DNA of 64,000 nucleotides from the NCBI RefSeq assembly GCF_013282805.1, contig NZ_CP054038.1:2294001-2358000 (forward strand). The letters are read 5' to 3'. Source of the DNA: Microbacterium hominis. GTDB taxonomy: Bacteria; Actinomycetota; Actinomycetes; Actinomycetales; Microbacteriaceae. How positions within the stretch are numbered: position 1 is the first letter of the stretch; each line of letters begins with the position of its first letter. The notes under the pieces were generated by a model. It worked only from the letters and a program-made list of their open reading frames with translations, had not been told where the DNA came from and ran no database searches. This document shows positions 6,310 through 17,040 of this stretch, piece by piece. The translations under genes and the position numbers were made by a program.

Positions 6310-6340
6310 GGATGACAGGATTTGAACCTGCGACCCCTTG
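6310..6340 (-). repeat. attL: 31-bp copy of the tRNA-Pro 3' half
   Basis: These 31 bp are identical to 16970-17000 inside the complete tRNA-Pro gene and cover the 3' anticodon stem, variable loop, T arm and most of the 3' acceptor strand. The next base outward differs (A at 6309, G at 16969), after which TC is shared. A partial tRNA copy at the far end of a segment with an integrase beside the whole tRNA marks the boundary of a site-specific integrated element. Confidence 0.9.
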
Positions 6341-6723
6341 GAGGATTCGGGCCATTTCCGAATCTCACCGGATGTCTTGAGAACCCTCGTGTTCCCTTGT
6401 GTTTACAGGGAACCGGACGGTTCGAATGTTCCGATCGTATCGGGTCAGCTGTGGTTGTTCCTGGGTGATTGAGGTGGGAAAATGGTGACCTCCGCGCCTC
6501 TTGATTAGGCGTCGCGGCCGCTACACGCTCACCGCGATCGTCGCTTCCCGACCCGTCTGCTATGAAGCCACCAAGTGGATACGCAGCGGTAGTCGATACG
6601 GATCACGGCTCCCTGGGATCCCTCACCGAATATTGGCCGCGCGATCGTCGACAATTGACTCGCTGAGGGGTGCGGGGTGATCATCCGTTGCGGTCGGTCG
6701 ACGTGTGAGTGCCGGACGCTGCC
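6341..6723. other. Non-coding left end of the integrated element
   Basis: I see no gene in these 383 bp. Two inverted repeats are present: ATTCGG/CCGAAT (6345-6363) and GTTCCCT/AGGGAAC (6391-6413, 9-nt spacer). They may be integrase or excisionase arm sites, or a terminator for the aldehyde dehydrogenase operon that ends at 6724. Confidence 0.4.
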
Positions 6724-8133
6724 TCAGCGGCTGATCACTTTCGGTGCCGCCACCGCCTTCAGACCCGCCACGCCGAACTCCTGGCCGTAGCCGGACTGCT
6801 TGGTGCCGCCGAACGGCACCATCGGGTTCAGGGCCCCGTGCTGGTTGATCCACACGGTGCCCGCTTGCAGCCGCTTGGCGACATCGACGGCTGCCTCCGC
6901 GTCATCGGACCATACCGAGGCGCCGAGACCTTGCTCTGAGGCGTTTGCCCTTCGGATCGCGTCCTCGATTTCCACGTACCTGATCACGGGGATCACGGGA
7001 CCGAACTGCTCTTCTTCGACCAGCTGGGCGTCGTCGTCGATGTCGGCGACGACGGTCGCCCGGTAGAAGAGAGGGCCGAGGTCGGCGGCGGGCGAACCAC
7101 CCGAGACGATGCGGGCGCCGCGCTGTCGGGCGTCGTCGACCAGTCGGCTCACGATGTCGAACTGGTTCTTGTTCTGGAGAGGGCCGAGCACGTTCCCCGC
7201 GTCGATCCCGCGGCCCATCGGCATCGTGTCCGCGAGCTGCGAGAGCGCTGACACGACATCCTCGTAGACCGACTCATGGACGTAGAGGCGCTTGAGAGCG
7301 GCACAGGTCTGACCGGTGTTGATGAAGCATCCCCAGAAGAGGTTCTCGGCGATGGCGGCGACGTTCGTGCCCGGAAGAACGATGCCGGCATCGTTTCCTC
7401 CGAGCTCGAGGGTGAGGCGGGCGAGGTTTCTCGCGGAGGACTCCACGATCCGGCGCCCCGCGTCTGTGGAGCCCGTGAACATGATCTTGTCAATGCTCGG
7501 GTGCGCCGCGAGCGCCGCACCTACTTTCCGATCGCCGCTGACGACGGTCAGGACTCCGTCGGGCAGGTGCCTGTTGAAGACTTCGACGAGTGCGAGCACG
7601 GAGAGTGGTGTGAAGCTGCTGGGTTTCACGATCACGGTGTTGCCCATGCGCAGCGCTGGGGCGATCTGCCAGACGGTGATCATCATCGGCCAGTTCCACG
7701 GGCCGATGGCGCCGACGACTCCGAGGGCGTCGTAGTGGACCTCCGCGCGCGCGTCGCCTGCTTCGAAAACGATCTCGGGTTCGAGGGGGGTGTCGGCGGC
7801 GTTTCGTGTCCAGACGGCGCACGCGCCCACCTCGAATCGCGCGTTCGGGCCGTCGAGGGGCTTGCCCTGTTCGCGTGAGAGCAGGTGAGCGAGTTCCTCG
7901 GCGTTGCTTTCGAGATCGTCCGCGATGCGGTTCAGGATGCTGCTCCGCTGGTGGTGCCCGAGGGCATTCCATGCGGGTTGCGCGGCTCGTGCCGTGGTGA
8001 TCATGCGCTCGAGGTCGTCGACGGTGTGGACGGGCGCGTAGCCGATGTTCTCTCGAGTGGCTGCGTCGGGGATCGCGCGGCCCTCGGCGGCATCGACGGT
8101 GATCGAATTCAGGATCGTTGTTGTCAGTGACAT
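6724..8133 (-). CDS. NAD(P)-dependent aldehyde dehydrogenase
   Basis: 469 residues, the usual length for the family. The oxyanion-hole Asn147 lies in PWNWP, Lys170 in VIVKPS, the general base Glu243 in LELGG, and the nucleophile Cys277 in GQTCAALKR, so it should be active. It oxidises an aldehyde to the acid. As last gene of an operon after an amine oxidase and a permease it most likely clears the amino- or aryl-aldehyde made by the oxidase; succinate-semialdehyde and gamma-aminobutyraldehyde dehydrogenases are close in pattern. AAGGAG precedes ATG 8133. A 43-nt gap separates it from the permease stop. Confidence 0.92.
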   Translation of the reverse strand: MSLTTTILNSITVDAAEGRAIPDAATRENIGYAPVHTVDDLERMITTARAAQPAWNALGHHQRSSILNRIADDLESNAEELAHLLSREQGKPLDGPNARFEVGACAVWTRNAADTPLEPEIVFEAGDARAEVHYDALGVVGAIGPWNWPMMITVWQIAPALRMGNTVIVKPSSFTPLSVLALVEVFNRHLPDGVLTVVSGDRKVGAALAAHPSIDKIMFTGSTDAGRRIVESSARNLARLTLELGGNDAGIVLPGTNVAAIAENLFWGCFINTGQTCAALKRLYVHESVYEDVVSALSQLADTMPMGRGIDAGNVLGPLQNKNQFDIVSRLVDDARQRGARIVSGGSPAADLGPLFYRATVVADIDDDAQLVEEEQFGPVIPVIRYVEIEDAIRRANASEQGLGASVWSDDAEAAVDVAKRLQAGTVWINQHGALNPMVPFGGTKQSGYGQEFGVAGLKAVAAPKVISR

Positions 8134-8176
8134 GCGAATTCTCCTTTGTGTGGGCTGATGGTGTACGAGTGGTGGG

Positions 8177-9640
8177 CTACCGCTCTGCGAGCAGCTGGCC
8201 GGGACGGCGTTCGGTGGTGATTCCGACCAGGAATGCGACAGGCACGACGGCGAGAAGGACGACGGCCGTGACCAGCTCGCCGCCGATCAGCGATGTGAAG
8301 TTGGCGATGACGAGTCCGAGCACCGCGAGCAGCAGAATCGCGGCGACCGACGGAGCGATGCGGGTCTGCCACCAGCTATCGATGTGGTGGCGCACCGAGT
8401 AGACGACGACTGCGATCGAGCACAGCACGTACAGCGTCACCAGGGCTGCGACGGCGAGTCCGCTGAACCAGGAGAAGAGCGTCAGGATCGGGTCGAGGCC
8501 GAGGATCGCGAACGGTGCGATGAGCACGAGGGCCAGGACGGACTGCGCCCAACCGGCGATGTGGGGCGCTCGGTGACGGTTCGTGTGCGCGAGTCGCTTC
8601 GGGAGGGACTGCTGGCTTCCGAGTGCGTGCAGGTACCGGTTGATTCCGTTGTGGAATGCGAGGATGCCGGCGAAAAGAGATGTGACGAGCAGGATGCTGG
8701 CGACGACGCCTGACCAGCCGCCGAGGATGCCATCGAGTGCTTGGAAGACGAAGGTGGTCGAGTCGCCGGACATGACGGCGGCTTCCGCTGCACCCACGAC
8801 GTTGTCGGCGCCGTAGTAGGAGATGAACATCCACGACACGAAGGAGAAGAAGACGGCGATCACACCGACCGAGAGGTAGGTGGCGCGCGCGACCGTCCGC
8901 TTGGGGTCCTTGGCCTCGCCGGAGTAGATCGCGGTCGATTCGAACCCGAACATCGACGCGACGGCAAACATCAGCGCGACACCCGGAGCGCCCGACATGA
9001 TGGCCGCAGGTGAGAAGCTCGCGGCGAAGTCGATGCTCCCGGAAGGTCCACCCCCGGTGATCAGCGTGCCGATGGCGAATGCCAGCAGAATGGCCACTTC
9101 CAGCCCCACGAGTACGGCGAGGACGCGTGCGCCCAACTCGATGTTGAGCGACCCGAGTGCCTGCACGGCCGCGATGGTGAGCACGACGGGGATCCACCAA
9201 GGGATCGTGACGCCGATGGAGGCGAGCAGCGCGCTGACACTGGCTCCGTAGAGGCCGTACATGGCGGCTTGCACCGTGGCGTAGGCGACGAGTGCGAGCC
9301 ATGCCGAGCCCGTGCCGGTGCGGCGTCCGAGCCCAGCGGTGACGTACGCGTAGAACGCGCCCTTCGCGTTCACGCGCCGACTCATGGCGATGAACCCGAT
9401 GGCGAAGATGACGATGATCACGCCGATGACGAGGTAAGCGCCGGGAGCGCCGGCGCCGTTGCCCAGCAGGATTGTCAGCGGGAGCGCACCGGCGATACCG
9501 GTCAAGGGCGCCTGGGCGGAGAGCACGAAGAAGAGGATGCCGATGACACCGACAGCGCCCTCGCGCAGTGCGGTTGATTGTTCGGGCTTGTTCCGCGCCG
9601 TGGGGGCGACGGGGAGCGGGCTTGCCTGGTTGAGTGACAT
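8177..9640 (-). CDS. APC-superfamily amino acid/amine permease
   Basis: 487 residues, predicted to cross the membrane about 12 times. The first helix region GVIGILFFVLSAQAPLTGIAG is the conserved unwound TM1 substrate-binding segment of APC transporters, and SRRVNAKGAFYAYVTAGLG follows as the usual loop and TM3. Expected to import an amino acid or amine by cation symport or exchange. The start is ATG 9640 (AAGGA about 10 nt upstream); upstream in-frame codons lie inside the oxidase gene. It begins 19 nt after the oxidase stop, so the two are co-transcribed and the permease probably feeds the oxidase. Confidence 0.9.
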   Translation of the reverse strand: MSLNQASPLPVAPTARNKPEQSTALREGAVGVIGILFFVLSAQAPLTGIAGALPLTILLGNGAGAPGAYLVIGVIIVIFAIGFIAMSRRVNAKGAFYAYVTAGLGRRTGTGSAWLALVAYATVQAAMYGLYGASVSALLASIGVTIPWWIPVVLTIAAVQALGSLNIELGARVLAVLVGLEVAILLAFAIGTLITGGGPSGSIDFAASFSPAAIMSGAPGVALMFAVASMFGFESTAIYSGEAKDPKRTVARATYLSVGVIAVFFSFVSWMFISYYGADNVVGAAEAAVMSGDSTTFVFQALDGILGGWSGVVASILLVTSLFAGILAFHNGINRYLHALGSQQSLPKRLAHTNRHRAPHIAGWAQSVLALVLIAPFAILGLDPILTLFSWFSGLAVAALVTLYVLCSIAVVVYSVRHHIDSWWQTRIAPSVAAILLLAVLGLVIANFTSLIGGELVTAVVLLAVVPVAFLVGITTERRPGQLLAER

Positions 9641-16784: not shown

Positions 16785-16930
16785 GCCTACTAGGTGCGCG
16801 GTTCGTCGCCCCACCGTTCGGAGGCAACCGGAGCGAAGTCGAGTCAGTCGAGACTTCGCGCCGCGACAGGGCGCCAGAGCGGTCAATTCGATGGCATTGC
16901 GATGACGTGGTCAAGTTTCACCAACTAAGA

Positions 16931-16960
16931 AGTCCCGGGAACCCTTAGGTTCCCGGGACT
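16931..16960. terminator. Terminator downstream of tRNA-Pro
   Basis: AGTCCCGGGAACC (16931-16943), a CTTA loop, and GGTTCCCGGGACT (16948-16960) form a perfect 13-bp hairpin 6 nt beyond the tRNA 3' end. On the minus strand TTCTTAGTT follows. It belongs to the element side of the junction, so the element supplies a replacement terminator for the tRNA. Confidence 0.8.
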
Positions 16961-16966
16961 CTTCCG

Positions 16967-17040
16967 TCGGGATGACAGGATTTGAACCTGCGACCCCTTG
17001 ACCCCCAGTCAAGTGCGCTACCAAGCTGCGCCACATCCCG
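16967..17040 (-). tRNA. tRNA-Pro (anticodon GGG); attR of the element
   Basis: A 74-nt cloverleaf: acceptor CGGGATG/CATCCCG, D stem GCGC, anticodon stem CTTGA/TCAAG with loop CTGGGGG (anticodon GGG, reading CCC and CCU), T arm GCAGG-TTCAAAT-CCTGT, discriminator A, and no encoded CCA. Positions 16970-17000 are shared with the partial copy at 6310-6340, so the 3' part of this gene was re-formed by the integrated element. Confidence 0.95.

Follow-up and report, generated by a model that had tools for sequence, protein, structure and literature searches.

The 64,000-nucleotide stretch of Microbacterium hominis DNA analysed here (the window; NCBI RefSeq assembly GCF_013282805.1, contig NZ_CP054038.1, positions 2,294,001 to 2,358,000) is part of a 3.9-Mb single-contig genome and very probably harbours a 10.66-kb integrative island. 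The island occupies a tRNA-Pro(GGG) gene and carries a self-regulated amine-catabolic operon, and its excision and transfer are predicted. Small islands of this sort, integrated at a tRNA and bearing catabolic genes, are a known kind, of which this is a new member; a title-level look through the literature, with most subscription journals outside it, recognised no described island of this kind. The tRNA-Pro(GGG) gene is the sole tRNA in the window according to ARAGORN and Rfam alike, and the ends of the island are laid out as follows:

16966..17040, minus strand, tRNA-Pro(GGG), the intact integration target (ARAGORN; Rfam RF00005, 64.5 bits)
16966..17000, minus strand, integrase-side copy of a 35-nt repeat, the tRNA 3' half as restored by the element
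16932..16962, minus strand, terminator carried in by the element (read from the sequence; other family elements have a similar hairpin after the tRNA or its half copy)
6341..6500, no strand assigned, conserved distal arm; a CGGAAAT...CCG...CTCC motif lies beside the core (DNA identity to five other elements)
6306..6340, minus strand, distal repeat copy, the displaced chromosomal 3' half with one substitution
6254..6307, minus strand, original chromosomal terminator of the tRNA, an inverted repeat with a T run (a similar one lies directly behind tRNA-Pro in five congeners)

The two repeat copies lie 10,660 bp apart and are identical at 34 of 35 positions, and the 31-bp direct repeats of the tRNA 3' half that had been claimed for both ends are the 31 nt within them that match exactly. 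A 27-nt probe from the repeat, allowing up to three mismatches, finds only two places in the window and matches in none of 100 shuffles, and the 24-nt core has exactly two exact copies in the whole genome. In the direction of the tRNA, the GTCCCGGGAACC hairpin comes after the integrase-side copy and the CCCCGGTGAGA hairpin after the distal copy. This arrangement of tRNA, displaced 3' half and terminator is visible in the sequence and in the comparison with other genomes. The G+C content is 65% in the island, 67% on its left side and 71% on its right. The left flank (window 1-6305) was considered as part of the element and rejected, as it is on the far side of the chromosomal terminator and has no gene in common with 19 tRNA-side loci (E 1e-15); another old island may account for its somewhat low G+C.

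The enzymes that would have placed the island are encoded next to the tRNA, as the original prediction had it, and matches to Phage_integrase, TIGR01764 and PHROG families bear this out:

15353..16540, minus strand, tyrosine integrase (PF00589 Phage_integrase, 2.3e-19; PHROG 1)
16545..16784, minus strand, excisionase-like helix-turn-helix (HTH) protein (TIGR01764, 29.4 bits against a cut-off of 28.8; PHROG 66 excisionase)

Both reading frames are intact. The integrase starts about 425 nt from the 3' end of the tRNA, with the excisionase-like gene (xis) in that gap, and carries R, HxxR, H and Y motifs, which we take to be the catalytic ones. The excisionase-like protein also resembles Mad1, under the NCBIfam cut-off. 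It is proposed that the integrase recombined a circular form of the element with the 3' half of the tRNA gene. The element supplies its own 3' half and terminator, so that the tRNA stays whole and the old half and terminator come to lie at the far end; the integrase together with the excisionase-like protein should be able to reverse the reaction.

Both ends of the island recur, with other cargo, in elements of this integrase family at tRNA-Pro(GGG). The DNA from the tRNA to the excisionase gene, including the GTCCCGGGAACC hairpin, is found whole or in part in other elements at 75-96% identity. The distal arm is common to six elements, that of the window included, with identities of 91% over 160 bp in congener G233, 86% over 146 bp in G265, 84% over 136 bp in G161, 76% over 139 bp in G029 and 74% over 105 bp in G039. 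The conserved arm motif is missing from the distal half in G041 and G241, and the terminator of that half is like those behind tRNA-Pro in G081 and G152. Since the integrase-side end and the distal arm are both conserved in sister elements, the amine operon sits between two conserved termini.

Sites of the empty type were sought among congeners, and in 5 of 360 (G011, G045, G049, G062 and G262) a hairpin of the CCCCGGTGAGA type stands directly behind a complete tRNA-Pro, as expected of a chromosome without the island. The flanks of the window, once joined, align with these five sites across tRNA and terminator, and a tyrosine integrase is missing from that side of the tRNA as far as the contig extends or across more than 500 kb. 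On the opposite side of the tRNA all five genomes have a tyrosine integrase 10-14 kb away, as does the window's genome. In the three that were compared (G045, G049 and G062) the genes beyond the terminator have none in common with the left flank of the window, and these sites are therefore of the empty type and not the exact ancestral site. The empty site that had been predicted is thus found in type, while an exact one with the island's own left flank was not. G011 also has a second tRNA-half copy 4.9 kb further on.

The integrase belongs to a clade that is widespread at this tRNA. Matches at 1e-60 occur in 46 of 247 genus genomes, and 14 of the 247, own included, have an integrase of at least 70% identity; nine of these 14 adjoin a complete tRNA-Pro(GGG), four lie next to a 3'-half copy, the pattern of tandem arrays, and one is plasmid-borne. 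The plasmid-borne copy lies on a 135,111-bp contig (G180), apparently plasmid A of Microbacterium sp. No. 7, where the integrase family and the integrase-side end are present at L164 8580-10182 without a tRNA half, among MFS, SDR, amidohydrolase and LysR genes; this plasmid is a possible vehicle for transfer. At 1e-120 the clade occurs in 18 of 199 genomes of the family, representing 17 of 85 genera, own included. Of five loci from other genera, two are at tRNA-Pro(GGG), one is at a half copy and two have neither in the short flank, and neither was found in the short flanks of six loci of a within-genus branch (62-63% identical). By hand count about 100 of 361 genus genomes hold at least two copies of the tRNA half, some on different contigs or strands, which marks the site as a hot spot. 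Separately, extra tRNA-Pro 3' halves were noted downstream of the tRNA or before an integrase in L034, L042, L046, L048, L084, L085, L087 and L090, several of them followed by element-type terminators, which indicates islands stacked in tandem or nested at one tRNA.

Sister elements carry unrelated cargo. Four small ones encode helicases (G029) or SIR2 and DUF4365 proteins (G039), in both cases together with a serine recombinase, the copper resistance functions CueP, P-type ATPase and DUF305 (G041), or an AbiEii gene and a hydrolase (G241), with ten proteins scanned per run. The 35-77 kb elements of G233, G161, G265 and G087 were read in part. An amine oxidase at 1e-90 was found in nine genomes, and the other 13 genomes of the clade do not occur among them, which indicates that the cargo is separable from the element; the integrase and oxidase counts come from two draws of 247 genus genomes each, possibly not identical. 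What does accompany the integrase is a core module of three genes:

15056..15337, plus strand, small core-module protein (best pieces 74-86% identity in G051, G087, G161, G250 and G265)
14685..14960, minus strand, 91-aa core-module protein (74-90% identity in seven elements)
13724..14692, minus strand, 322-aa Arg-rich core-module protein (74-91% identity in seven elements)

The latter two genes are common to eight of the 14 loci (own, G051, G161, G250, G265, G087, G081 and G233), and neither of them turned up in the other six. The 322-aa protein matches no Pfam, NCBIfam, PADLOC or PHROG family; it has 130 homologues at E 1e-3, the named ones listed being from Microbacterium except one from Micromonospora, and the full-length homologues are mostly 72-91% identical. 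It adjoins this integrase in the eight loci examined. No relaxase, coupling protein, type IV secretion system or FtsK-type translocase was found among the 12 predicted genes scanned (ten in Pfam; the excisionase-like protein and orf15056 in NCBIfam), a scan of genes only in which oriT was not searched. With no conjugation gene found, cell-to-cell transfer would proceed by other means.

The remainder of the island is cargo, dominated by the operon. The TetR, cupin, amine oxidase, permease and aldehyde dehydrogenase unit that had been predicted is confirmed in all five members by Pfam families:

6724..8133, minus strand, aldehyde dehydrogenase (PF00171, 3.9e-138)
8177..9640, minus strand, APC-type amino acid/amine permease (PF13520)
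9660..10979, minus strand, flavin amine oxidase (PF01593)
10997..11341, minus strand, cupin, EutQ-like (PF05899)
11381..11409, minus strand, promoter-like TTGCGG-17-TTAAAT spanning the operator
11384..11397, no strand assigned, proposed TetR operator TAAGCA-NN-TGCTTA (promoter alignment)
11450..12058, plus strand, TetR regulator, BetI-like, divergent (PF00440, PF17940; BetI models under cut-off)
12057..12665, minus strand, cargo protein without a family in the libraries scanned
12682..13485, minus strand, NERD-domain cargo protein (PF08378, 7e-13)

The cupin, oxidase, permease and dehydrogenase genes share one strand with gaps of 17, 19 and 43 bp, and the TetR gene diverges from them at a distance of 108 bp. 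The palindrome TAAGCA-NN-TGCTTA is present in eight of nine aligned promoters, the ninth having a one-base variant; the alignment comprises operon loci with TetR beside the cupin, own included, and leaves out near-duplicates and other layouts. From this conservation the palindrome is inferred to be the operator to which TetR binds. It occurs as a single copy in the 3.9-Mb genome, so that regulation of the operon looks self-contained. Judging from family membership and the conserved operator, TetR would repress the promoter until the amine or its product binds the regulator. The permease would take up the amine, the flavin enzyme would oxidise it to an aldehyde with release of hydrogen peroxide and of ammonia or an alkylamine, the dehydrogenase would convert the aldehyde to the acid, and the cupin may have an accessory or sensing role. 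A defence role for the NERD gene was considered and dropped, there being no PADLOC match. The genes at 12057-12665, 13724-14692, 14685-14960 and 15056-15337 have no family in the libraries scanned.

The closest solved relatives of the amine oxidase are 7u6l and 7e7h (E about 1e-84; 7u6l 9.5e-85). 7U6L is the structure of Pnao, the pseudooxynicotine amine oxidase of Pseudomonas putida S16, whose aromatic-cage residues are reported to be Trp434 and Phe470 (PMC9396064). By alignment and spacing these fall on Trp375 and Phe411 of the island enzyme, 36 residues apart, and both cage residues thus appear to be kept. A twin-arginine translocation (TAT) signal and an adjacent cytochrome c gene are given as signposts of flavin amine dehydrogenases of the Pnao/NicA2 type that use cytochrome c (PMC12224317). 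Unlike Pnao, the island enzyme has no TAT-type signal at its N-terminus (MNTVHYDVIVIGAG, judged by eye) and no cytochrome c gene among the element genes scanned, and by these signposts it is expected to use oxygen. Possible substrates are a monoamine, a diamine or another amino-alkyl compound.

At 1e-60 the oxidase has 2080 relatives among 7997 candidates scored, and the best 120 of these bear mostly no name or a generic one, two being called 'pseudooxynicotine oxidase' by their sources. Oxidases of 86-88% identity are P0002-P0004. At 1e-90 it is found in nine of 247 genus genomes, own included, and relatives of 39-74% identity occur in 16 named genomes of a one-genome-per-species collection, including Microbacterium timonense, Agromyces, Isoptericola, Arthrobacter and Amycolatopsis. 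The order TetR, cupin, oxidase, permease, dehydrogenase is kept in M. timonense, M. aurantiacum, G194, G185 and G152. In other loci the permease or the gene order differs, or the sequence examined shows no dehydrogenase; the cupin is missing from some, the most distant among them. Plasmids were considered as a source of close relatives and rejected, all 75 records being below 60% identity and the best ten at 40% or less.

G152 holds the operon at the same tRNA-Pro, on the same side and in the same orientation as the window. The interval is bounded by tRNA-half copies at 656206 and 682052, 25.8 kb apart, and no tyrosine integrase occurs within 40 kb of the operon on the contig. Over the stretch that runs from CTGGGGGTCA to CCCGACA its tRNA-half copies show two base differences, and its far junction is of a type unlike that of the window; given these mismatches and the other junction type, the interval may also have been put together by several insertions. 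Beside the tRNA are an IS3-like transposase and a short frame with a SMODS domain, and the other frames (ten scanned) encode, among other things, an oligopeptide-type ABC transporter, an amidohydrolase, a flavin reductase, a luciferase-like monooxygenase and two hydrolases. In a tree of 28 oxidase sequences (own, seven of the eight congeners, ten of the 16 named loci and ten of the 120 listed proteins), which leaves nine of 25 inner branches open, the G152 oxidase clusters with those of G075, M. oxydans and G194 (100/100), whereas the window oxidase clusters with proteins from short contigs (100/99). The separate clade and the different junction type suggest that the operon was captured at this tRNA on at least two occasions. 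Two further features of this locus were noted. The SMODS/CD-NTase-like frame by the transposase (L094 13137-13502) is perhaps a remnant of defence cargo, and a 5'-half tRNA-Pro remnant (L094 14046-14200), a few dozen bp from the intact tRNA-Pro, is a trace of older recombination through the anticodon region.

Taken further, there is an even chance that tRNA-Pro(GGG) is a genus-wide cassette slot of Microbacterium in which several systems swap traits, and that the amine operon was loaded at least twice, from different lineages and by different systems. If so, amine use would be a gain-and-loss trait exchanged through one tRNA, and the operon, travelling with the only operator in the genome, would be well suited to moving.

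Several observations weigh against an island that is mobile and devoted to amine catabolism. The one substitution in the distal repeat is present in none of the five empty-type sites, which suggests that the island has been resident for some time, and window 5801-6305 finds no other genome among the matches listed for 366 genus genomes. The aldehyde dehydrogenase falls under the cut-off in the best 25 of 42 NCBIfam models and, as the oxidase relatives have mostly generic names, no substrate is claimed. Furthermore, the eight of 246 congeners with the oxidase show no tyrosine integrase on its contig up to 40 kb away (two contigs being only about 32 kb long), and the operon is therefore not dependent on this element.

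The strongest alternative, with a real but less than even chance, is that the island entered by an old integrase event, no longer excises, and has left the operon as an ordinary chromosomal trait. This shares the origin proposed above and differs only on present mobility, and the confidence placed in the two overlaps. It draws on the substituted distal repeat, on the absence of transfer genes among those scanned and on G152, where the operon lies between tRNA-half copies without a tyrosine integrase, like a decayed island. Set against it, neither int nor xis has lost its reading frame, the repeats still match exactly over 31 nt, and the distal arm is 84-91% identical to elements of three other genomes. 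The 'mobile, switchable' trait foreseen by the original prediction stands in part: the intact int/xis pair and the common element family speak for it, the missing conjugation gene and the substituted distal tRNA copy against it.

A remnant prophage or phage satellite with acquired metabolic genes is improbable. The integrase does have phage relatives, the best at 40% identity in Gordonia phages, but no structural, packaging or replication gene was found among the predicted genes when the seven outside the operon were compared with PHROGs. Good matches were obtained for the integrase and the HTH protein only, and the matches of the latter to terminase small subunits are weaker than that to excisionase. 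Least probable by a little is an operon ancestral at tRNA-Pro alongside which an integrase element merely inserted: in its favour, G152 has the operon at this tRNA with identical side and orientation, but the operon of the island lies within the conserved element termini, the oxidase is found in eight of 246 other congeners, seven of them without the tRNA-Pro core in the flanks examined, and the G152 copy belongs to another supported clade with another type of junction. No case of the operon at tRNA-Pro lacking both repeats and integrase was found in the loci compared, G152 being integrase-less but bounded by tRNA-half copies.

The integrative island, as read here, resembles the degradative integrative and conjugative elements (ICEs) of the ICEclc and Tn4371 families in its tyrosine integrase, insertion at a tRNA 3' end, direct repeats and catabolic cargo. 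Those elements are conjugative, encode aromatic pathways and use tRNA-Gly or tRNA-Leu, according to the review, which also calls aromatic-degrading ICEs rare in Gram-positives (PMC9960961). By contrast, the island measures 10.7 kb, has no transfer gene that was seen, and brings amine oxidation to a tRNA-Pro of an actinobacterium. The argW region of Escherichia coli (csc/dsdCXA) is likewise a variable tRNA-side region with small catabolic operons, for sucrose and D-serine (PMC3032704), whereas the island has an amine operon, an intact int/xis pair and clear repeats. It provides an actinobacterial case of catabolic islands, a class described chiefly from Proteobacteria, and shows a compact catabolic operon occupying the site that holds defence or metal-resistance genes in some relatives. 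It also defines, with both ends, a family of small integrative elements at one Microbacterium tRNA. The separable family, the likely double capture and the private operator take the finding beyond the routine, and the att sites and operator are now testable.

Elsewhere in the window, a Fic-domain protein is encoded at 3224-4423 (PADLOC SoFic model), with a paralogue of 79% DNA identity about 13 kb upstream of the window. A GMC-type oxidoreductase, named by sequence reading, lies at 57-1727, appears split into frames at 57-1259 and 1362-1727, and may be a pseudogene. The low-G+C stretch at 37-42 kb of the window is due to an rRNA operon at 36961-42260.

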